DNA of 34,373 nt from assembly GCA_020720455.1 (NCBI GenBank), contig DYOQ01000011.1:13089-47461 (forward strand). Reading direction: 5' to 3'. Below, in pieces: positions 3,296-13,617 of this stretch (its first letter is position 1; the number at the start of each line of letters is the position of its first letter). The notes under the pieces were generated by a model. That model was not told the origin of the DNA. It ran no database searches and saw nothing but the letters and a program-made list of their open reading frames with translations. The stretch is from Bdellovibrio sp. Lineage in GTDB: Bacteria; Bdellovibrionota; Bacteriovoracia; Bacteriovoracales; Bacteriovoracaceae. The position numbers and the translations under genes were made by a program.

Positions 3296-3661
3296 TTACC
3301 TTTCAATATTGCAGAAAATATTTATCGCTTCATCTATATCACTAAATGGTTTAGTTAGTAACCTACAACCATAGGCCTTTGCCTTTTTTAAAACTTGATC
3401 GGAGCTATAAGCAGTAATAATTACGAAGATTTTTTCTATTTCGTAGAGAGAATATTTTTTCTTTGATTCTTCAATGACGTCGAAGCCGCTGACGTCTTGC
3501 AGCATTAGGTCACAAATAATTCTATCATAATGGTTATTTAAAATTTCATCAATAGCATCAATGCCGCTGCTCTTAGCTGTTACATTGTGGCCCCTTTTTT
3601 TGATCAGTATTGTTAGTGACTTTTGAATTAAGAGTTCATCTTCAATTAATAAAATTTTCAC
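3296..3661 (-). CDS. Single-domain response regulator (CheY-like receiver)
   Basis: This is a stand-alone receiver domain of 121 residues with no DNA-binding or enzymatic output domain. It has the acidic pocket E7/D8/E9 in IEDE, the phospho-acceptor D51 in CDLML, the switch T83 in ITAYS and K104 in TKPF. The start is read as GTG at 3661 because its GTGA overlaps the TGA of the histidine kinase gene by four bases and the receiver fold begins there. A longer ORF from 3706 would add 15 residues that do not resemble a receiver. It is almost certainly the partner of the kinase immediately upstream. Position in a flagellar operon suggests motor or filament-assembly control, but that is inference. 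Confidence 0.9.
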   Translation of the reverse strand: MKILLIEDELLIQKSLTILIKKRGHNVTAKSSGIDAIDEILNNHYDRIICDLMLQDVSGFDVIEESKKKYSLYEIEKIFVIITAYSSDQVLKKAKAYGCRLLTKPFSDIDEAINIFCNIER

Positions 3662-4980
3662 GTGATTGTACCAAGAGGTAATGTAAGAGTAAAGCAGGCA
3701 CCCCATTCATTAAGGTTGTTTGCTGCACGAACTGTTCCACCAAGTTCCGTTGCTAAATATTCACATATTGTAAGGCCAAGTCCCGTCCCTCGCTCCTTTG
3801 TAGTAAAAAAAGGTTCGAAAATATTATTCACAATGTTGGCCGGGATCCCATTACCATTATCCTTTATAGAAATTGATACGGACGTTGGGAGAATATTTAC
3901 AATGACTTCAATTAGTTTGTCACGATTGACTTTAGCAAGTTCGTGAGCAGCATTGATTATAAAGTTAAATAGAATTTGTACTATCCATGTGCGGTTTGTA
4001 TTCACGAGGATTTGAGCATCACCACTGGTGTTTAGATACGTCGTGGTTCTTTTAATTTCACGACAAACACTTTTTGTTATGATGATTGATTCTTTAATAA
4101 TTGATTTTAAATCACACACAGAAGATTCTTTCTTTATGGCATACAAATTTGAAAAATTATCGATTATTGATTGGCATCGAGATGCTTCTGATGAGATAGC
4201 GTTAACAAGGTCAATTCCATCGCCACTAATTTTATCGGTGAGTAGACCTGCTGTGAGTTTGATTCCAAAAATCGGGTTACTTAGTTCGTGCTTTAGTGTG
4301 TTTAGCAACTCGCCAAGAAGTTCAATTTTTCTAACATGGTAGTTTTTTGATTTGAGTTCTTTGTCAGTGATAGGTTCACTCTCTAGAATTTTAATTGCAT
4401 TTGAAAGAATAACGTTTCGGTGTGTTTGCTTTTCTTCATTGATTTTTGCAAGGATTTGTTTTTTAAAAGAAGAGATTACTCGATAAAACGTGTCGTACTC
4501 AAAATTACTCGGGGGCAAAAAATCATTTCTAGAAAGTAAAACTATCAACTGATGAGTGCTGGCATCTAGTGCAACAGCTAAAAAGACGCCGACTATGTTG
4601 AGGTGGCGACTAAGTAGTTGTGATTGGTCAAAGAGTTTATTCTTACTCCTTCTGATGATTTCATAGATTGAGTTAAACTCTTGCGCAGGAACGATGCTTT
4701 TTGTTGATGCGGAGGCGTTTGTGCATGAATAAAGGCTAGTCGTTTCCTTCGCCCCTTTTTCGTGAATGAGACATTGGCAGGCCGTGTATTTTTTAAAAAA
4801 AACAAGGCTTAGAATATTTGCAGGCAAATTATCAATAGATTTAAATTTATTAATAAAAGTTTCATATGCAGGTGAGAGTTGGATTAAAATAGTTTCGATG
4901 TCGCTTGGACTATTTGTTAAGCTGTGTGACGAACTACGCTTAGTACTCTTGCCATTGGGGTTATGCAGTCGCTGTGCCAT
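3658..4980 (-). CDS. Soluble sensor histidine kinase
   Basis: This 440-residue kinase has no membrane segment, so it should act in the cytoplasm. The H-box is LKHELSNPI with H231 as phosphorylation site. The ATPase part has an N-box (FNFIINAAHELAK, N343), G1 DNGNGIP (374-380), an F-box FEPFFTT (388-394) and G2 GTGLGL (398-403). Residues about 50-180 look like a degenerate GAF-type sensor domain with several cysteines. Residues 1-27 are polar, serine-rich and probably disordered. Its ATG overlaps the preceding gene by 64 bases, and no other plausible start or clear ribosome binding site exists nearby. It hands over to the receiver gene by a GTGA overlap. Confidence 0.92.
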   Translation of the reverse strand: MAQRLHNPNGKSTKRSSSHSLTNSPSDIETILIQLSPAYETFINKFKSIDNLPANILSLVFFKKYTACQCLIHEKGAKETTSLYSCTNASASTKSIVPAQEFNSIYEIIRRSKNKLFDQSQLLSRHLNIVGVFLAVALDASTHQLIVLLSRNDFLPPSNFEYDTFYRVISSFKKQILAKINEEKQTHRNVILSNAIKILESEPITDKELKSKNYHVRKIELLGELLNTLKHELSNPIFGIKLTAGLLTDKISGDGIDLVNAISSEASRCQSIIDNFSNLYAIKKESSVCDLKSIIKESIIITKSVCREIKRTTTYLNTSGDAQILVNTNRTWIVQILFNFIINAAHELAKVNRDKLIEVIVNILPTSVSISIKDNGNGIPANIVNNIFEPFFTTKERGTGLGLTICEYLATELGGTVRAANNLNEWGACFTLTLPLGTIT

Positions 4981-5396
4981 TTAACAAGGTTATCTTTTAG
5001 TTCGTATTCTAGCAAGTCACAAATGAGTGAGATATTGTTATCCTTATGTGCAGCTAGGATTTCTTTTAAGATAGACATCAAGTGTGTTTCACAACGGTTG
5101 TATTTTTCAATAATATCTAGTGTTGCCTGTTCATCGGCAGTGTTGCATACATTAAGAATCTTGGTTGTTATCGTGACGGTGAGTTCTAACATTTTAGTGA
5201 GTTCAATAAACATTTTGTTTGCTTCTACAATATTGTTTGATTGAAAGAGGCCCGTAGTTTTGCTAATAACTGATTGGATGTTGTCAATGTAACCTGATAC
5301 AGACGAAGCTGATTCAGATGCTAGAGCAATACGGTCCAAGTTTGTTGCAGCAGGATTTTTTTTGTCTGTAGTTACGCTTGCTGAATCATTAATCAT
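4917..5396 (-). CDS. Uncharacterised helical protein of the flagellar operon
   Basis: I do not recognise this 159-residue protein. It has no signal peptide or membrane segment. After a polar N-terminus (1-20) it appears almost wholly alpha-helical, with heptad-like hydrophobic spacing and cysteines near residues 105, 118, 137 and 146, which could make it a small bundle or adaptor. The ATG overlaps the TGA of the GT9 gene as ATGA at 5393-5396, which strongly supports the start. Its last 21 codons are read again in another frame as the beginning of the histidine kinase. Possible roles include a partner of the kinase or of the glycosyltransferases; the sequence does not decide. Confidence 0.75.
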   Translation of the reverse strand: MINDSASVTTDKKNPAATNLDRIALASESASSVSGYIDNIQSVISKTTGLFQSNNIVEANKMFIELTKMLELTVTITTKILNVCNTADEQATLDIIEKYNRCETHLMSILKEILAAHKDNNISLICDLLEYELKDNLVKWHSDCITPMARVLSVVRHTA

Positions 5397-7072
5397 ACGG
5401 TTACCCCTGCATTTGTAGTGCTAAATTTCGTATTGTTTTTTATATCATATTGAGTAAGAATTTTTTCGATTAGTTCGTACATTATAGCGATGACTGTCGC
5501 GTAGTCGTTGAAAGTAATGTATGAGTTCTCGGTTATTGCTACTAGCGTCCCCCCGGGAAGGTTGCTTTTACAAACCTGAAAATAGTCGATTATGGGTGCT
5601 AGAAGTGGAAAGCTTTTTCTGACAATTTCTTGGAGATTGTCAATTTCGTCAATGTTTGCGGAGTGTTTTTTAATTTGATCTATTTTGGGAGGGGTGCAGG
5701 TAATATCTTCTAGAATATATCTTGAATATTTTTTACCAAATTCACAAAGATCGTATAAGTGTTGTAGGCCGGAAGCGTAGTGCTTTAATTCACTAGCAGT
5801 TTTAGCGTTTAGAGACGGAAACGGTAAATTTTCTTCGATTTCATCAAAGAAAAAATTCCAACATATCCGATACATTGTTGTCAAGATATGTGCAACCTCA
5901 CTTTCGTTCTTGGTTAGCTCAACTAGTGAAAGTTTATTCTGTAGGGTTATAGATGATTTGTAGATTCTGATCCCATCTAGATTGCAGCTCGGGGTGTATT
6001 TTAAAATAGTCTCTAGTGTTACATCTTGATTTTGAATTGCATTCTGTGCAATCGCGGTTATCGCTTGATAATGGATTTTCGAGTGACACCCAAGCAGTGG
6101 GCATTTCTCATTTATTTCGCAAGGGAAACAGTTAATTTTTGGAGTAACGACGATATTATTTTTCCCGTATGGAACTGTTTCTATAGGACGAACAGGTCCA
6201 AGTGACAATGTAATTGATTGTGTTCCTGTAGTAGATGCAATGTGGCCAACCATTGAATCATTACCAATAAAGAGTGCTGACTCTCTCATAATTTTTTCAA
6301 TATCACTTATCTCGCTTGATCCTGTGAGGTTTAGTATGTTGTCTTTGACTTTTTGAATAAGGGGAGAGTTAAGGATTGCACTTGCTTGAGTCATATCATT
6401 TTTTGCACCGACAATAACTATTTTCCACATAGGGTTTTGTTTAATAATAGTATAAATTAAGTCAGTCCACTTGATCGTGCCCCAGGTTTTTTTTGTTTCT
6501 GACGAGAATGGGTGTATTACAATCTGTTTTTTTCTGGTCGCTGATTTTTGTTGATCAAGAATAAACGGAGCACCAATTATACTCGAATATATGTCTACAA
6601 GAGAGTATGGGTTTAGAGTACCTCTCATTACACTAGCATAAATATGCTTTGACCATTTGTCGGAAATTATCACAGTACCATCTTTACCATACCACGGCCC
6701 AATCTTGTGCTTTGCTTTGATTAACGAGCAAAGATAAGACGAGGTTCTTGAAAAAGATAGATTTATGCATACGTCAATGTTTGAAGCGGAGATGTTAGAA
6801 ACAATTTTTTCTAGAGAAGTTGTCGCATCTGTAAGAGTTGTTTGATCGCCACTAGTAAATATCTCTTCTGGATCTATTAGGTGGCATTTCGTAAACGTTT
6901 TATTTAACCTATCAATAATTGGAGTCGCAAACTGCTTTCTCGCAACTAAAGTTATATTGAGACTAGGAATTGCTTTCTTCATGTATGAAGCAACCATCTC
7001 TGTTTGCAACAGATCTCCAATTCTAGTGATTTGGACTATGCAGATTGTGCTACTCTTTTTTTGTTGTACCAT
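5393..7072 (-). CDS. GT9 (heptosyltransferase-like) glycosyltransferase with C-terminal helical domain
   Basis: Residues 1 to about 350 form a two-lobed GT-B fold of family GT9. The acceptor-side loop is RIGDLLQT (17-24), the donor-side lobe begins near IVIHPFS (184-190), and the sugar-nucleotide region is FIGNDSMVGHIAS (268-280). A cysteine cluster C315-x2-C318-x5-C324-x4-C329 follows. Such clusters are common in GT9 and form an iron finger in the autotransporter heptosyltransferases of the TibC type. Residues 350-559 are an added helical domain unlike LPS heptosyltransferases. The ATG has GAGG six bases upstream. It overlaps the small ORF before it by 23 bases and the next gene by ATGA. A role in glycosylating flagellin or FliD is inferred from position; LPS sugar transfer is the alternative. 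Confidence 0.85.
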   Translation of the reverse strand: MVQQKKSSTICIVQITRIGDLLQTEMVASYMKKAIPSLNITLVARKQFATPIIDRLNKTFTKCHLIDPEEIFTSGDQTTLTDATTSLEKIVSNISASNIDVCINLSFSRTSSYLCSLIKAKHKIGPWYGKDGTVIISDKWSKHIYASVMRGTLNPYSLVDIYSSIIGAPFILDQQKSATRKKQIVIHPFSSETKKTWGTIKWTDLIYTIIKQNPMWKIVIVGAKNDMTQASAILNSPLIQKVKDNILNLTGSSEISDIEKIMRESALFIGNDSMVGHIASTTGTQSITLSLGPVRPIETVPYGKNNIVVTPKINCFPCEINEKCPLLGCHSKIHYQAITAIAQNAIQNQDVTLETILKYTPSCNLDGIRIYKSSITLQNKLSLVELTKNESEVAHILTTMYRICWNFFFDEIEENLPFPSLNAKTASELKHYASGLQHLYDLCEFGKKYSRYILEDITCTPPKIDQIKKHSANIDEIDNLQEIVRKSFPLLAPIIDYFQVCKSNLPGGTLVAITENSYITFNDYATVIAIMYELIEKILTQYDIKNNTKFSTTNAGVTV

Positions 7073-7196
7073 GGCCGTCCTCTTGGATAATGTGCTCTAG
7101 AAGAAGAACTAGCATGTCGTGTTCATCAAGAAGTTCTCCAGCAATTTTCTTAGCCTTTACGACCTTAACTTTTTCAGAAATCTCTTCTGTAATCAT
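7050..7196 (-). CDS. Small 48-residue protein between the two glycosyltransferases
   Basis: This ORF fills the otherwise empty gap between the two GT9 genes. Its ATG overlaps the TGA of the upstream GT9 gene exactly as ATGA (7193-7196), and its TAG lies 23 bases inside the downstream GT9 gene. The product is highly charged: it begins MITEEISEKVKVV, has a leucine/isoleucine-rich helix (residues about 21-38), and ends with a polar GHGTTKKE tail. It has no signal peptide. The same coupling style is used throughout the operon, which is the main support. I recognise no family. It could be a small helical subunit or regulator linking the two enzymes. Chance is the alternative, but a gap-filling ORF with a coupled start at this junction makes that less likely. 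Confidence 0.65.
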   Translation of the reverse strand: MITEEISEKVKVVKAKKIAGELLDEHDMLVLLLEHIIQEDGHGTTKKE

Positions 7197-8920
7197 ATGT
7201 TGCTCGCTTGAGTGCTTGGTTGTTGATGAGTCGTTGTTTTTTGTGATTTAACTTTAAAAACTGCATCTTCTTGTTGTTTTTGTTTTGTCTGCATATCCAG
7301 TGCATTTAAACAAGAGACAAGAGTTTGAAGACTATTTTTCACCTCATAAAGAAGTGTCTCTGCTGTTTTATAGTTATCAGTAAAACTATCATTTTCGGCA
7401 GATTCCATTTTCGCTCGTAAAATATGGAGAGGTATTGATGCTAGTTCTTCTGTTTGGCAAAAAGATAGAAGTTTATCTAGCGATACGATAAATTCCTGAA
7501 CATTGTCAGAAGATTTTGCGCTGACTTTTGTTAGAGAGCGAATAGTGCCAAGGAGTGCTCTACTAATTTCGGTGCAGGCCTCTTTTTCTTTTGCCATCCA
7601 ATCAATGATTGTTGCGTATGGTACATTTTTGTGAGCCTGAATAGGTATTGTAATAACTAATGTTTTGTTGGTCAAAGCCTTGATGTATTCGCGAAACATA
7701 TTAAACGATAATAGATCGTGAAAATTAACATGGCCAACTGCCGGAGTGTAGTACACCCCGAGGTTATCTTTTTTGGGGACATATAAACAAACTTCAGAAG
7801 ACGGAGCTGCTTGTTGCATCATTCTCGGAGTAAATAGACACTTTATTGACATGAATATATCGCTAGCTTTTATCTTCTGCTGGCAAAGATGTTTTGTGTC
7901 ACAGCTACATTCAGATTTGGCCGAACAAGGGTAACAACTAATCGTTGGTGCAAGTACGATGTTATTTAAATTATATCCACCTTGTTTTCTAAACGGGGCC
8001 GACCCTAGCGCAACTTCAACAGTAGGAATTCCTAGTAAGTCTGCTAAATGTTTTGTGACAGTATCTGGAGTGACAATTGCATCAAGATTTGAAATTACAG
8101 ATGGGAGTGCAACAAGGTCTGATTCAACAATAATAAGTGCATTATTAAACAGAGCGTTCATACTGTCTGCAATTTGTGACTCTGATTTTTGCTGAGATAC
8201 AAGTAATACCGGAACCATTGACTCAGAAGCATAGATTTTGTCAATAAGTTCAACTATTGTGTCATATGGGATGTTCTTTTTTTCGTCAGAAGTAAAAAGT
8301 TGGATTCCTACTAGCTGAATTGGATCAGAATTTTTTGAATATTTTTTTCTTACGGAATCAAAAGCCTGTTGAGATGTTTCGTTATGTTTAAGGTTTGTTT
8401 TAATAATCCCAGCAGAGACATTTTTTTGTCCTTCGATGTTACATATTTTATGGTAACAATCGATGTGGTGTAAGTTAGAGTACTTAAACTCAGTAAGAAC
8501 ATCGTTAAATAGTATTGCCCAGTCAGATGAAAACTGCGTTGTGTTTGCTTGAGAATATTTTACTCCGCAATATTTATCTTTCGATAGATATGCTGTTAAG
8601 TAAGCGCTCGTTACATCGTTTGAATAATTAACCACAGTCTCCCATTTCGCTTCCTTGATTTCATCAATGACACAAGAAAAAGCGTCCAGGGCCATTCCAT
8701 CAGAAAACAGTTTATTACCTGTTATCGATAGAATTTTTTTTCGGTCAATTGCATATGTTGTGGAGATTCCCTTAATGCTTTTTGCGGCCGCTTGGAACTC
8801 ACTATATACTAGCATTGAAATTTTACAGTTTGGATATTTGCTTTTGATTGAATCAACAAGATATGCTGAAGCATAGATATCGCCATATCGTAGTAGATTG
8901 ATAATAAGCACGCTGTTCAC
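7193..8920 (-). CDS. Second GT9-type glycosyltransferase, paralogue of the downstream one
   Basis: This 575-residue protein shares the plan of the GT9 protein encoded downstream. It opens with VLIINLLRYGDIYAS (4-18), has the donor-lobe start VGIQLFTSDEKKN (204-216), the VTPDTVTKHLADLLGIPTVEV block (283-303), and a cysteine cluster C329-x2-C332-x5-C338-x-C340-x5-C346. Residues from about 365 onward form a helical C-terminal extension ending in a glutamine/lysine-rich tail. The start is GTG at 8920, with AAGGA seven bases before it, inside the 13-base gap after the DUF115-like gene. The loop sequence RYGD replaces the usual RxGD, and catalytic competence is uncertain. Probably it acts with its paralogue as a pair on a flagellar protein. 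Confidence 0.8.
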   Translation of the reverse strand: MNSVLIINLLRYGDIYASAYLVDSIKSKYPNCKISMLVYSEFQAAAKSIKGISTTYAIDRKKILSITGNKLFSDGMALDAFSCVIDEIKEAKWETVVNYSNDVTSAYLTAYLSKDKYCGVKYSQANTTQFSSDWAILFNDVLTEFKYSNLHHIDCYHKICNIEGQKNVSAGIIKTNLKHNETSQQAFDSVRKKYSKNSDPIQLVGIQLFTSDEKKNIPYDTIVELIDKIYASESMVPVLLVSQQKSESQIADSMNALFNNALIIVESDLVALPSVISNLDAIVTPDTVTKHLADLLGIPTVEVALGSAPFRKQGGYNLNNIVLAPTISCYPCSAKSECSCDTKHLCQQKIKASDIFMSIKCLFTPRMMQQAAPSSEVCLYVPKKDNLGVYYTPAVGHVNFHDLLSFNMFREYIKALTNKTLVITIPIQAHKNVPYATIIDWMAKEKEACTEISRALLGTIRSLTKVSAKSSDNVQEFIVSLDKLLSFCQTEELASIPLHILRAKMESAENDSFTDNYKTAETLLYEVKNSLQTLVSCLNALDMQTKQKQQEDAVFKVKSQKTTTHQQPSTQASNI

Positions 8921-8933
8921 ACTAACATCCTTG

Positions 8934-9599
8934 TTAATTTTCCCGCTTCCGTGCGGCCATATGTTTAAATGCCATCAAGAGATGATCATTTTCTACCATA
9001 ATAGAATTTTTAGAACTAAGCCCTGTGGTCAATAATTCAGAAAAAATAGTATCAGCTGCAAAACGGCTTAGATACTCTTTAAGAGATTTGTTTGTTATAT
9101 GTTGTTTAATTTCACCGATATTTTCCGGTGAGCGATATGTTAGAAAATCAGTAAAATATTGTTTATGAAGATTAAATGATGGAGCATGTGAAATTACTCC
9201 AGGTTTTTTAAGTAAAAAATCAACGAGTTCTACATTGCGATACAACTCAGATATTTTTTGACCATGATAAATGGTTAGTCTGTCGGTTGGCAGTAGGTTA
9301 TTCGACTTACACTGTTGATATGTCTCACTTAGCGGTTCGATGACGACAACGCTAAACCCACTCTTGTGAGTATTTTCTAATGAGTCTAGAAGTTTTGCAA
9401 TATGGTAACCAAATCCAAGACCTAGGCATAAAATTGATTTGTTATTTTTAACCAAATCCTGATGTTTATCTATTAATTCGTCTGCCTCTTTTTCTGGATT
9501 ATAGATAGAGTGCAATTGAATACCATTAATAACCGGTATTTTTTTTCCAGTTTTAGACTCTCTAATCTGGTAATCTGAAATTTTGTAAAGCTCTTCCAT
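8934..9599 (-). CDS. DUF115/Maf-like N-terminal domain protein
   Basis: The 221-residue protein resembles the N-terminal module of motility accessory factor (Maf, DUF115) proteins. These transfer nonulosonic acids to flagellin in other bacteria. The visible hallmarks are HSIYNPEKEADELI (about 30-43) followed by a Rossmann-like ILCLGLGFGYHIAKLL and a VVVIEPLSETY strand that resembles a methyltransferase fold. The usual full Maf protein is about 600 residues, so the catalytic DUF115 half is absent here. The ATG at 9599 is chosen because AAGGTG lies six bases upstream; a GTG at 9608 has no such site. It sits between the FliD/FliS/FliT-like block and the two GT9 genes, consistent with flagellin modification. 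A stand-alone Rossmann enzyme is the alternative. Confidence 0.65.
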   Translation of the reverse strand: MEELYKISDYQIRESKTGKKIPVINGIQLHSIYNPEKEADELIDKHQDLVKNNKSILCLGLGFGYHIAKLLDSLENTHKSGFSVVVIEPLSETYQQCKSNNLLPTDRLTIYHGQKISELYRNVELVDFLLKKPGVISHAPSFNLHKQYFTDFLTYRSPENIGEIKQHITNKSLKEYLSRFAADTIFSELLTTGLSSKNSIMVENDHLLMAFKHMAARKREN

Positions 9600-9658
9600 G
9601 TTCCTCACCTTATTTCGCTAACATTCATTCTACTACTAATTGAAAAAAAGGCACGTCA

Positions 9659-10060
9659 TTACTTACGGACTGAGGTTAAGTTGTAGCCTTCATGGGCCTG
9701 TCGAATGTTGAATATTGTAGCAATCTCCTGGGTTAAATCTTTTCTGATTTTTTCAAGTTGGATGGCCGCTGAGATATTTTTTCTGTCAATTTCTTCAATA
9801 AAATTAGACACATCAACTGCCCATGTTTCCAGGATCTCTTTAATTTCAACAGGGATTTTCCCAAGATATGAAATTTTATCTTCAATATTTGATTGAGATG
9901 ACTCAGTAATACTAAATAGTCGTTCTCGGTTTTTAGTTTGCATCTCAATTGCATCAACATTATTTCTTATTGCTGCCATCTCAATTTTTATAGTTGCTTT
10001 TAAAATGTGTTCCAAGTACTCAAGATGTGCCATCAGAGAGTAAAGTAGTGAATCGTACAT
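9659..10060 (-). CDS. FliT/FlgN-like export chaperone candidate
   Basis: This is a 133-residue, almost fully helical, charged protein with no signal peptide and no membrane segment. It comes directly after fliS with a 16-base gap and an AAGGAG ribosome binding site seven bases before the ATG. In many flagellated bacteria the fliD-fliS pair is followed by fliT, which encodes the export chaperone of the cap protein, and size and helical content fit FliT or the related FlgN. Primary sequence in these chaperones is poorly conserved, so the call rests on position and architecture. A gap of 59 bases follows before the DUF115-like gene, the largest break in the operon. Confidence 0.55.
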   Translation of the reverse strand: MYDSLLYSLMAHLEYLEHILKATIKIEMAAIRNNVDAIEMQTKNRERLFSITESSQSNIEDKISYLGKIPVEIKEILETWAVDVSNFIEEIDRKNISAAIQLEKIRKDLTQEIATIFNIRQAHEGYNLTSVRK

Positions 10061-10076: not shown

Positions 10077-10484
10077 TTATGTGTTGTTTTCGTTTTGTTT
10101 ATTTACACTTCCTGGCTTTAAAGATTTTATTGCATCTCTCCAGCCATCGTATAAAGTTTCTAGTACCTTAAGACAACCGCCTAGTGCTTCTTTGTCAAAG
10201 TTGATGTTTGCTTGTGTACTTGAAAATAAAATATAGTCGTACAGTGACGACAACTCTTTTGCTATGTCTCCTCCGACTTCAAAATCAAGACTATTGTTTA
10301 GCTCGATGACGATGTCTTGTAGTTTTCCTATAAAGACACCTTTGTCTGCGATACTGTTTTTTTCAATTGCCTCAATTGCCTTCTTGCAGTTTTTGATTGC
10401 TGCTTGATAGAGCATTAACAAAATTTGTTCTTTGCTTGCGGTGTTGATAGATGTTTTTTTGTAAGCGCCTAGTCCGTAACTCAT
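10077..10484 (-). CDS. fliS: Flagellar export chaperone FliS
   Basis: FliS binds the C-terminus of flagellin in the cytoplasm and prevents premature polymerisation before export. The 135-residue length is typical. It begins with GLGAYKKTSINTASKEQILLMLYQAAI-type sequence, matching the AYxx...T..P.QLLLMLYEGAI signature, followed by the conserved helical bundle and a central SLDFEVGGDIAKELSSLYDYI region that matches the family's L.....g.iA..L..LYdY pattern. The C-terminal helix is LKVLETLYDGWRDAIK. The ATG has AGGAG seven bases upstream. It is 13 bases after fliD, the classical order. Confidence 0.95.
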   Translation of the reverse strand: MSYGLGAYKKTSINTASKEQILLMLYQAAIKNCKKAIEAIEKNSIADKGVFIGKLQDIVIELNNSLDFEVGGDIAKELSSLYDYILFSSTQANINFDKEALGGCLKVLETLYDGWRDAIKSLKPGSVNKQNENNT

Positions 10485-10497
10485 AATTTAACTCCTA

Positions 10498-11898
10498 TTA
10501 GCCTAGTTGGGCAACTGGGTTTGCAGCAGCAGATGCGGCACCGTTTAGGGCAGCAAGGCCAGCTCCTGAATTTTTAATGTTTGATATCGTTGTTTCTAAT
10601 TGTGCAAATTTTCTTTTTAGATTTTGTTCTTTTTGTTTTATCATGCGTTCTTTATTCGCAATTCGACGATCAACCTGCTCGATGCTTGATTTTAGGCTTC
10701 TTGTTCTTGATGTTAATAGGCCATCAGGAGTTCGAAGAGAGTTGTTAACTACATCGTCAAGATGTTTAATAAATCCAGGAGAGTATTGTTTATCACTTGT
10801 ATAATAACCAGTAAGAACTTCTGAGACCATTTGATAATTATTTGAGAGCATAGACTCAAATTTAGCTTTATCTAGCTTGAGGGTACCATCTTTTATGAAT
10901 TCTACGCCTAGATCACCAAATCTTTTGTTGCCATAGTTCGTCGGGATATCTCTAAAAATTACACCGCGCAATCTACCTTCAAGAGATTGTAGCATAATAT
11001 CGCCACCTAGTGTTCTTGAAGTATCTGTGTGCTGATCTAAAGTGTTTTGCTCTTTGATAAATTTTATAACATCATTTATTTTTTCTACCATGGCAGAAAT
11101 TTTCTCTGTTATGGCAACAATATCTTCAGTGATTTTAAGGGAGAATTCTTCGCCCGGTTTAGCTTGAAGTAGTTGAAGGGTTACTCCAGGAATAAGATCG
11201 GTGACCATGTTTTCAGGAGTCTCAATTTCAAAACCATCTAATTTGACTTTAGCGTTTTGGGCCGGCCGTTCCTTTTCTAAATAAAAATCTTCATCACCAT
11301 CAACAAAATAAAAATGAGGAAATTCTGCTTTATTTCCTTCTCCTGTTCCTGCTACATTGAAAATTAGTCTCCATGGTTTATCCGAACCAGTACCGTCATT
11401 GATCACGTTAGCAGTGATCCCATTTTCTGGGTCTGAATTTATTAGTTTTGCTATTCCATCAAGAGACGAGTTATCTGCATCAATGTAGATCTCTTTTTCT
11501 TCACCATTTGGTAGTTCAAACTGAATAAAACCTACTCCGATGTAACTATCTTTGCGATCAGCAAATGCAGATGACATCGCTGAAGATTTTTGAGCAAGCT
11601 GTGTTACTTCTAACTGATAATTCCCAGGTTTGGCCAAGTTTTTATCAAGCTTGACATCAACAACACCCTTGTTTGTATCAAACTGCAGTTCTCTGAAACT
11701 TCTGGAATTCATATTTTTTGTTACTTCAGTACGTACTTGTCCAAGTATACCTGACAGTTGTTCGACTAATTTTTGCTTGTCTTGCATTTTAGATTTTTGG
11801 TCTTCCATTTTGGTAATTGGTATTCGTTCCGCATTAACTAATTGCTGAACAATATCTTTTGGCAAACCAGTATTGATTGAACCAAATGAAATACCCAA
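10498..11898 (-). CDS. fliD: Flagellar hook-associated protein 2 / filament cap FliD
   Basis: FliD is exported and forms the cap under which flagellin subunits fold at the filament tip. The N-terminus GISFGSINTGLPKDIVQQLVNAER and the C-terminus with DxxxxxxxRxxxKERMIKQKEQNLKRKFAQLE are the two family hallmarks. The middle holds a FliD_N region, a VKLDGFEIETPENMVTDLIPGVTL segment, and the IRxxIF-like GRLRGVIFRDIP. I choose TTG at 11898 (466 residues). GAGGGAG lies eight bases upstream and the conserved block begins at once. ATGs at 11937 and 11919 give longer forms, but the first lies almost at the predicted transcript 5' end and the second has no ribosome binding site. It heads the operon. 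Confidence 0.92.
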   Translation of the reverse strand: MGISFGSINTGLPKDIVQQLVNAERIPITKMEDQKSKMQDKQKLVEQLSGILGQVRTEVTKNMNSRSFRELQFDTNKGVVDVKLDKNLAKPGNYQLEVTQLAQKSSAMSSAFADRKDSYIGVGFIQFELPNGEEKEIYIDADNSSLDGIAKLINSDPENGITANVINDGTGSDKPWRLIFNVAGTGEGNKAEFPHFYFVDGDEDFYLEKERPAQNAKVKLDGFEIETPENMVTDLIPGVTLQLLQAKPGEEFSLKITEDIVAITEKISAMVEKINDVIKFIKEQNTLDQHTDTSRTLGGDIMLQSLEGRLRGVIFRDIPTNYGNKRFGDLGVEFIKDGTLKLDKAKFESMLSNNYQMVSEVLTGYYTSDKQYSPGFIKHLDDVVNNSLRTPDGLLTSRTRSLKSSIEQVDRRIANKERMIKQKEQNLKRKFAQLETTISNIKNSGAGLAALNGAASAAANPVAQLG

Positions 11899-11906
11899 TT
11901 TAAAAT

Positions 11907-11913
11907 CTCCCTC
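11907..11913 (-). promoter_or_regulatory. Strong ribosome binding site for a TTG start of fliD
   Basis: Read on the minus strand this is GAGGGAG, the best Shine-Dalgarno match around the fliD 5' end, eight bases before the TTG at 11898. It lies inside the reading frame of the longer ATG forms, which argues that those forms are not used. Confidence 0.5.
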
Positions 11914-11947
11914 GGACATTGATAAAAAATAGTCCATGTCCGTTTTT

Positions 11948-12075: not shown

Positions 12076-12117
12076 GTATGATTCTTCAGTCGATAACAAT
12101 AATAATAGTTGAGCGGT

Positions 12118-13617
12118 ATGCATAATAATATCCCACTTGATGGGTCAGACATAATAAGAGCTAAGTTTAAATTTTTTTTTAATAGAGCAATTGTTTATTT
12201 TGCGTTTTTGTTGGTTCCGGTTTGGACTCAGAAATGTATTGAGATGGATCTTGGGACACAGTCTTTGACTATGCTTTTATATATGGCCTTTATGGCCGGC
12301 CAGTGGTTTCTTCTTGGTAAAGAGATCGATTACAGATTAAAAATATATTTTAGAGTTAACTCATCTGTTGATAGGATTATTTATAGATTATTACTTGGAA
12401 TGGCAGTACTAATTATTTATTTCAATTTGCTTTTCCTTTTGCCAACAGAGATCATCAAACATTTTTTTTGGGGAACATGGATTTCGCTTGGCCTTTTCTA
12501 CTCATGGCCGACGAGAGGAAAAATCATAAAAGAGAGTGTGACGACTCATCTGGGTGAGTTTACGCATTTGGATTCATTTGAAAAAACGTTGCTATTTTTA
12601 ATTATAATACTATTTATTGTTTCTATTCCTCAATTGGGTACTTTCGATAGTATCGACGCAGTAAAGTTTAATTTAGATCCTTCTGGAAAAATTAGCGATC
12701 AACTATGGAATTTTTTATACATAAACTATTTTCCTTTTAAAAAATTTCCAAGACTTTTTTCTATGGCGTTTAATTTACATGTGTACGTAGTGTTTATGGG
12801 TACGTTCTTATTATCTTTCTATGCATTGCTGAGATTTATTGTGTGTAGAAGATTAGCGCTTCTTGGAGTTTTTTCCCTGCTATCGTCATGGGCATTTGCT
12901 CAGTTTATCTATGCCTCGTTAGCATTAGTGCTACCAACGACATTTTCTGTAATATGGATTTGGAGTTTACTGTGGGTAGTTAAAAGTGCAACATATCGTT
13001 CAGGACTGTTTCTAGGTATAATAATTTATATAGGTACTCTTTTGCACGCAAGTTATTTTCTTTTGCTCATTCCTCATTTTGTTTCTGTGTATTATCTTTT
13101 TTTGAGAGACAAAACTAGTTGGTACAAAAAACAGTTATTAAAATACACAGCGTTTGGTGTTGGAATGGCCATACTAACTCTTTTGTTGGAAAAATTTAAC
13201 ATGGGCGATTTTTATAAATTAGATTTTGGATACTTTAGCGAGCTAGCATACTTAGTTGGAAGAAAAGCTTTTTTTTCGCTCTCTTTTTTCGGTGTTTTAG
13301 TGTTGCCTCTTTTTCTGGTTAAAAGAGGGTATAAGCTTTTTTCTGAAATTAAAATTCAGCAAAGCTCATTCCAGATCGTTGTTTTTTCTTTTGCATCTTT
13401 AATCATTTTCTCTCTTTTTTTTGATTCGTACGTAGTTAGGTCATTTTCTGGAATGGTTCTGCTAGCAACATTAAGCTTAATCCCGATAGAAATTTTATTT
13501 CAAACATTGAGCAAGCTAAGGTCAAGCAGAAATATGATTTACCTCATCTATATACTGGTTTGCTTACTAGATAGCCATTTTGAAGGAAGAGTCAAAGTTT
13601 TTTTTAAGATGTTTTAG
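12118..13617 (+). CDS. Unknown polytopic inner-membrane protein
   Basis: I do not recognise this 499-residue protein. It has about 12 to 14 hydrophobic segments spread over its length, for example near residues 20-38, 85-108, 153-172 and 215-242, with short basic loops and only one longer soluble loop, around residues 170-210 (rich in D, F, P and K). The large non-membrane loop after an early membrane segment is reminiscent of GT-C glycosyltransferases or O-antigen ligases, but no catalytic motif is visible. The ATG at 12118 is preferred (GAGCGG just upstream); a TTG at 12109 adds three residues without a ribosome binding site. It is divergent from fliD, with its own extended -10 promoter, and is followed by a long gap, so it is probably monocistronic. 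Confidence 0.75.
   Translation: MHNNIPLDGSDIIRAKFKFFFNRAIVYFAFLLVPVWTQKCIEMDLGTQSLTMLLYMAFMAGQWFLLGKEIDYRLKIYFRVNSSVDRIIYRLLLGMAVLIIYFNLLFLLPTEIIKHFFWGTWISLGLFYSWPTRGKIIKESVTTHLGEFTHLDSFEKTLLFLIIILFIVSIPQLGTFDSIDAVKFNLDPSGKISDQLWNFLYINYFPFKKFPRLFSMAFNLHVYVVFMGTFLLSFYALLRFIVCRRLALLGVFSLLSSWAFAQFIYASLALVLPTTFSVIWIWSLLWVVKSATYRSGLFLGIIIYIGTLLHASYFLLLIPHFVSVYYLFLRDKTSWYKKQLLKYTAFGVGMAILTLLLEKFNMGDFYKLDFGYFSELAYLVGRKAFFSLSFFGVLVLPLFLVKRGYKLFSEIKIQQSSFQIVVFSFASLIIFSLFFDSYVVRSFSGMVLLATLSLIPIEILFQTLSKLRSSRNMIYLIYILVCLLDSHFEGRVKVFFKMF

Follow-up and report, generated by a model that had tools for sequence, protein, structure and literature searches.

A conserved gene module of two GT9 proteins and a MafN-type protein beside fliD and fliS in Bacteriovoracaceae, with a proposed role in flagellin heptosylation

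We analyzed a stretch of 34,373 nucleotides from Bdellovibrio sp. (family Bacteriovoracaceae; assembly GCA_020720455.1), hereafter the window, which spans positions 13089-47461 of one contig (DYOQ01000011.1) in a 2.70-Mb draft genome. All coordinates below are window positions. The minus strand carries a run of genes in the order fliD, fliS, a FliT-like open reading frame (ORF), mafN, gt9B, a gene for a 48-residue protein, gt9A, and then genes for a PhoU-like protein, a histidine kinase, a response regulator, an NAD kinase-like protein and recN. FliD, FliS and the module discussed here, which consists of MafN, the 48-residue protein and two paralogues of glycosyltransferase family 9 (GT9), GT9A and GT9B, thus belong to a single gene run, and the module genes are closely packed, several of them overlapping. 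The features are as follows.

10498..11937, minus strand: FliD, the filament cap (Pfam FliD_C, 147 bits)
10077..10484, minus strand: FliS, the flagellin export chaperone (Pfam, 125 bits)
9659..10060, minus strand: FliT-like small protein of 133 residues, without a Pfam match, named from its position only; the position is conserved
8934..9608, minus strand: MafN, 224 residues, Rossmann-like, with no glycosyltransferase domain (PF20157, 19.5 bits)
7193..8920, minus strand: GT9B, 575 residues, the second GT9 paralogue (Pfam GT9, 47.1 bits)
7883..7936, minus strand: cysteine cluster of GT9B, C329-x2-C332-x5-C338-x-C340-x5-C346, read from the sequence
7232..7792, minus strand: C-terminal domain of GT9B, residues ~377-563, from the model, with the same topology as that of GT9A
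7050..7196, minus strand: gene for the 48-residue protein MITEEISEKVKVVKAKKIAGELLDEHDMLVLLLEHIIQEDGHGTTKKE, overlapping the end of gt9B and the start of gt9A
5393..7072, minus strand: GT9A, 559 residues, the proposed catalytic subunit (Pfam GT9, 66 bits)
6086..6130, minus strand: cysteine cluster of GT9A, C315-x2-C318-x5-C324-x4-C329
5438..5977, minus strand: C-terminal domain of GT9A, residues ~366-545, modeled as a beta hairpin and a five-helix bundle
4917..5396, minus strand: PhoU-like protein of 159 residues (NCBIfam PhoU, 26 bits, below the cut-off), whose start overlaps the end of gt9A

Both GT9 proteins score above the Pfam GT9 cut-off (PF01075, 22 bits), and both contain the cysteine strings exactly as the original prediction had read them. 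Both window proteins carry the residues RGDSKDH at the seven positions checked, and the catalytic residues of GT9A, R17, G19, D20, S191, K195, D272, and H277, are intact. The full R-G-D, S-K, and D-H set is present in 71 of 78 GT9A proteins. For GT9B, D14, K215, D286, and H291 are all retained in 60 of 92 proteins, the other 32 being degenerate or partial; in both counts some genomes appear twice because two collections overlap. The two GT9s had been treated as equivalent, which does not hold, with a GT9B active site that is intact in the window and degenerate in about one third of the relatives.

The cysteine clusters differ in a similar way. The four cysteines of GT9A are invariant in all 63 aligned sequences, five other phyla included, and may bind a metal. 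The window protein has the GT9B pattern. A pattern scan of 59 Bacteriovoracia GT9B proteins longer than 500 residues recovered none with it; it is present in L061, from another family. The cluster of GT9B is thus not a feature of its family. We rejected the cluster as a unique mark of these proteins, as a related C-x2-C string occurs in 17 of 36 scanned GT9s, mostly ordinary ones of the relatives. Separately, some relatives (L111, L113, and L026, the last from G011) have a gt9A that is broken into parts or interrupted by an in-frame stop, which suggests either that the catalytic subunit has been lost repeatedly or that the sequences contain errors.

The AlphaFold models (predicted local distance difference test scores of 92.1 for GT9A and 92.0 for GT9B) show in both proteins a GT-B core followed by a beta hairpin and a five-helix bundle, in agreement with the extra helical C-terminal domain that had been predicted. 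The folds most like these belong to 3TOV (a GT9 protein of unstated function) and to the lipopolysaccharide (LPS) heptosyltransferases WaaC and WaaF, with Z scores of 25.0-29.7; the closest is 3TOV for both GT9A (Z 27.6, with WaaC at 26.0) and GT9B (Z 29.7). TibC, the analogue originally proposed, scores lower (Z 17.4-17.9) and has a different cysteine spacing, making the analogy a loose one. Chain a of PDB entry 7wff, an NDH complex subunit from plant chloroplasts, also lies near the GT9 models, above TibC (Z 19-23), which is an unexpected occurrence of a GT9-like fold in a complex of the respiratory type.

The C-terminal domains of GT9A and GT9B share a topology and align at the profile level (hhalign 50% over 165 columns), and are related to one another. 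A profile search of PDB sequences with these domains returned chance hits only, at the sequence level. Kinship with FliS, the FliT-like protein, the PhoU-like protein, or the C-terminal part of the MafN-CgeB proteins described below was rejected (hhalign ≤0.6%).

A quick tree of the core domains places GT9A and GT9B in one group with the long GT9s of other phyla, separate from 32 ordinary GT9s with a Shimodaira-Hasegawa-like approximate likelihood ratio test (SH-aLRT) support of 100; GT9A and GT9B are sisters in the same tree (support 89). The three sets share a common origin. This placement bears on an alternative in which the two GT9s are LPS core heptosyltransferases, or act on the LPS of a flagellar sheath, and lie in the flagellar run by chance. 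Enzymes of the GT9 kind are known chiefly from LPS synthesis. Some bacteria have membrane-sheathed flagella, and the GT9 fold, the NCBIfam likeness to LPS heptosyltransferases I-III, and the presence of heptose pathway genes would all fit such a role. However, the NCBIfam scores reach at most 52.6 bits against equivalog cut-offs of 134.6-185.3 (TIGR02193, TIGR02195, and TIGR02201; for example, 47.7 against 134.6), ordinary GT9s lack the long C-terminal domain, and ordinary short GT9s occur elsewhere, including one in this genome. LPS synthesis, which had been left standing as an alternative, is now a weaker rival, and we consider it unlikely.

MafN appears to be a stand-alone Maf-type N-terminal domain with a short C-terminal tail. 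The window protein falls below the PF20157 cut-off of 23.5 bits, while 19 of 29 members of the MafN family match that model (best E 1e-6). It had been described as the Rossmann half of a DUF115 protein, a description that we replace, as PF01973 (DUF115, MAF_flag10/MptE-like) is absent both from MafN and from the whole genome, and the closest relatives lie elsewhere. A scan of a genome collection found 14 loci outside Bacteriovoracia, in Cloacimonadota, Nitrospinota, Nitrospirota, Latescibacterota, Thermodesulfobacteriota, and one unclassified bacterium; MafN was the only query, and this distant set is therefore selected for MafN. Where the distant relatives were checked with Pfam, the MafN domain fronts a protein of 530-700 residues with DUF3880 and Glyco_trans_1_2, a CgeB-like glycosyltransferase. 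We refer to these proteins as MafN-CgeB, having dropped the label "full-length Maf" in view of the Pfam result.

In 13 of the 14 distant loci, the MafN-CgeB gene is followed by a gene for a long GT9 (~550-610 residues, longer in one fusion). These long GT9s carry the same C-x2-C-x5-C-x4-C string as GT9A, and fliC, fliD, or fliS lies nearby in five of the 14 loci. In Latescibacterota, a natural fusion of 1190 residues near fliC and fliD (L142:7990-11562) joins a long GT9, MafN, and CgeB in one protein, a strong hint that the parts act together.

Profile comparisons also suggest where the window MafN comes from. It aligns with the N-terminus of MafN-CgeB at an hhalign probability of 99.9%, and its last 60 residues align with the extreme C-terminus of MafN-CgeB at 64-79% (controls 0.1-0.6%), while DUF3880 and Glyco_trans_1_2 are missing. 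The most likely account of MafN is therefore a MafN-CgeB protein minus its catalytic middle, with a docking role probably retained. An origin from a canonical Maf was rejected: against the Maf of the same phylum the N-domain reaches 96% but the tail only 0.1%, compared with 99.9% and 64% for MafN-CgeB.

What looks like a 120-bp "gap" separating gt9B from gt9A proves to be coding: 47 of 49 loci, among them the window, have a gene here for 42-75 residues, usually 42-53. Across ten pairs of relatives (one of them, L110/L121, poorly aligned), substitutions at codon positions 1, 2, and 3 number 96, 67, and 187, and this third-position excess is as expected of a translated ORF. The product is short, acidic, and probably helical, and its position suggests a small subunit or an adaptor. 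No conserved sigma-28, sigma-54, or sigma-70 motif was found in the gap.

With respect to conservation, the relatives of the window are Bacteriovoracaceae, including Bacteriovorax sp. BSW11_IV and Halobacteriovorax marinus. A GT9A search gave a match in 45 of 59 relatives, weak matches to ordinary GT9s included. Around the strong matches (27-42% identity), the order fliD-fliS-(fliT)-mafN-gt9B-gt9A-phoU-histidine kinase-response regulator is kept, and the MafN scan recovered the same order at ~66 Bacteriovoracia loci wherever the contig was long enough, a conservation that puts the arrangement beyond chance. The supposed DUF115-type protein was said to follow fliD-fliS directly; it does lie near fliS, but the FliT-like ORF intervenes.

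All 33 family genomes with FliD have at least part of the module. Conversely, G028 and G032 lack FliD, flagellin, and GT9A. Both keep a match to the HldE domain I kinase, as expected if LPS synthesis is separate from the module, and this argues further against an LPS role for GT9A. The absence of FliD from G008 and G030 was rejected as evidence, since both have flagellin genes and an assembly gap is likely. Partial modules also occur: GT9A stands without MafN and GT9B in G011, neither GT9B nor MafN was found beside GT9A in G015, and G004 and G024 have shorter forms. Taken together, the synteny, the absence from two clean non-flagellated relatives, and the long GT9s beside fliC, fliD, or fliS elsewhere support well the original proposal of flagellar protein glycosylation. 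Canonical Maf proteins with PF01973 are encoded a few kb from fliD-fliS in a different family of the phylum (L193, L194, and L195, from G051, G058, and G044), at a locus that resembles the site held by the GT9 module in the window family.

The best conserved positions of GT9B fall largely in its C-terminal domain (12 of 21), which suggests that selection maintains this domain rather than catalysis. This pattern fits another alternative, in which former glycosyltransferases now act mainly as a chaperone or export-control complex for flagellin, with catalysis dispensable or lost. The degenerate active site in 32 of 92 GT9B proteins, a MafN without a catalytic domain, and two genomes (G003 and G006) that retain only MafN and a degenerate GT9B, without GT9A, point in the same direction. 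On the other hand, the complete catalytic set in nearly all GT9A proteins and the intact active sites of both window GT9s speak for an active enzyme, and we regard a mainly chaperone-like module as improbable.

The position of a heptose gene bears on the sugar donor. HldC, the heptose-1-phosphate adenylyltransferase that forms ADP-heptose (TIGR02199, 197.6 bits against a cut-off of 181.5), is encoded just left of the window, 8 kb from GT9A, with a small ORF and then two flagellin genes after it. Of the 25 family genomes with HldC and fliD on one contig, 21 have the two no more than 20 kb apart; where HldC is farther away or on another contig (G029, G001, G005, and G026), it adjoins a flagellin gene. 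HldD also scores above its cut-off, and GmhA-like and HldA-like genes score below theirs. NeuB, the nonulosonic acid synthase, is absent from this genome, and with neither NeuB nor a DUF115 domain, canonical Maf chemistry is unavailable. Heptose is most likely the sugar, because HldC adjoins the flagellin genes, other ADP-heptose genes are present, and NeuB and the catalytic Maf domain are missing. The earlier suggestion of heptose has thereby gained support.

The same gene helps to weigh the acceptor. The module follows closely behind fliD and fliS in one run, as it might if its target were FliD or another filament-associated protein, with the sugar perhaps serving as a quality mark for the cap. 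HldC, however, adjoins the flagellin genes and not fliD, and the canonical Mafs in the other family of the phylum are likewise near fliD, although Mafs modify flagellin (PMC4065374, PMC11339370). We give a FliD-directed system little credence as the primary function.

Our preferred interpretation is a module that serves O-glycosylation of the flagellar filament in the cytoplasm. GT9A would be the catalytic subunit, transferring a sugar (most likely D-glycero-D-manno-heptose, donated by ADP-heptose) to serine or threonine residues of flagellin before export, with FliD as the second-choice acceptor. GT9B, MafN, the 48-residue protein, and the C-terminal helical domains would recognize or hold the acceptor. 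We put the probability of flagellin O-heptosylation by GT9A, with GT9B, MafN, and the 48-residue protein as accessory components, at roughly two in three.

Several points weigh against flagellin heptosylation. The clean non-flagellated contrast consists of two genomes (G028 and G032) and these of related species. The pattern in G003 and G006 indicates that part of the module is useful beyond heptosylation by GT9A. Shared gene order alone is a weak argument, as phoU, the histidine kinase, the response regulator, the NAD kinase gene, and recN show the same degree of conservation and have no part in glycosylation. Similarly, the position of HldC may be one ancestral arrangement inherited without function; in the loci of other phyla no HldC was seen close to the module, and other donors are possible for GT9 enzymes.

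A broader evolutionary account of flagellin heptosylation is tentative, and we would not yet bet on it. The system may descend from an ancient machine, spread over at least six phyla, that combined a MafN docking protein with an active GT9 whose own helical domain bound the acceptor. In Bacteriovoracaceae, the CgeB protein would then have been stripped to its docking part, the second GT9 would be drifting towards a pseudo-enzyme, and the 48-residue protein would have been added, giving a four-protein complex that puts heptose on flagellin, drawn from ADP-heptose whose synthesis is encoded beside the flagellin genes.

Additional genes flank the module. The PhoU-like gene neighboring gt9A is conserved in most loci, and together with the histidine kinase and response regulator genes (3296-5396, minus strand) it usually lies downstream of gt9A in the relatives; weak PhoU-like matches are likewise seen close to the long GT9 of L142 and L145. 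These three genes might conceivably form a sensor of flagellar modification. On the other side, a divergently oriented gene (12109-13617, plus strand) adjoins fliD in nearly all relatives and encodes a multi-pass membrane protein of 502 residues with no Pfam or NCBIfam match, possibly a membrane glycosyltransferase or a flagellar-sheath protein. An Rfam search of the window gave no match.

There is precedent both for heptose on flagellin and for GT9 genes in flagellar loci, and the module would be a variant on these. The flagellin of enterotoxigenic E. coli bears heptose (PMC5000012), and "previously undescribed", as the original prediction put it, was therefore too strong. GT9 genes in enterobacterial flag-2 loci have been predicted to serve flagellin glycosylation (PMC6993521). 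The established flagellin glycosyltransferases are Maf (PMC11339370, PMC4065374) and FlmG (PMC7591256), and TibC, with its iron finger, serves as the model of a protein heptosyltransferase (PMC4358343). In the literature searched, which left out most subscription journals, we found no paper on the GT9-MafN pair or on the function of MafN-CgeB and long GT9 pairs.

If our interpretation is correct, GT9 enzymes would represent a further widespread lineage of dedicated flagellin glycosyltransferases beside Maf and FlmG. Flagellin heptosylation, which in enterotoxigenic E. coli has no settled enzyme, would gain candidate genes in cultivable environmental bacteria. Furthermore, the MafN domain occurs here without a catalytic part, which makes the role of the Maf N-domain directly testable. 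The cultivated members of this group are predators of other bacteria and need motility to find their prey.

Among known systems, WaaC, WaaF, and 3TOV share with the window GT9s the GT-B GT9 fold over approximately residues 1-350 and the Asp/Lys/Asp/His catalytic set. The window GT9s differ in their extra 200-residue C-terminal domain, their separate tree group, and their flagellar context, and no such cysteine cluster was found in E. coli WaaC, WaaF, WaaQ, or WaaU. TibC/BAHT resembles the module as a GT9-like enzyme, with heptose on protein as proposed here, and with four cysteines after the second lobe. However, TibC begins with an N-terminal beta barrel of ~97 residues (PMC4358343), whereas our models start with a Rossmann strand at residue 9 (GT9A) or 3 (GT9B); its iron finger comprises Cys339, Cys342, Cys358, and Cys370 (PMC4358343), whereas the C-x2-C-x5-C-x4-C spacing of GT9A is shorter; and its autotransporter substrate is encoded nearby, whereas the neighbors of GT9A and GT9B are flagellar genes.

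FlmG of Caulobacter also couples a GT-B enzyme to a protein-binding domain and modifies flagellin in the cytoplasm (PMC7591256). Its binding part is an N-terminal tetratricopeptide repeat (TPR) domain, in contrast to the C-terminal helical domain that would serve here, and neither GT9 has a TPR match. Canonical Maf proteins (PF20157 and PF01973) resemble the system here in a locus near fliD, in flagellin glycosylation in the cytoplasm as we propose it, and probably in the N-terminal Rossmann-like domain, but their catalytic PF01973 is found neither in MafN nor elsewhere in this genome, which also lacks NeuB. The MafN-CgeB and long GT9 pairs of other phyla share the MafN domain and tail, an adjacent GT9 of the same group, and the same cysteine cluster. 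They retain DUF3880 and Glyco_trans_1_2, whereas the window system has lost that part and has two GT9 paralogues.

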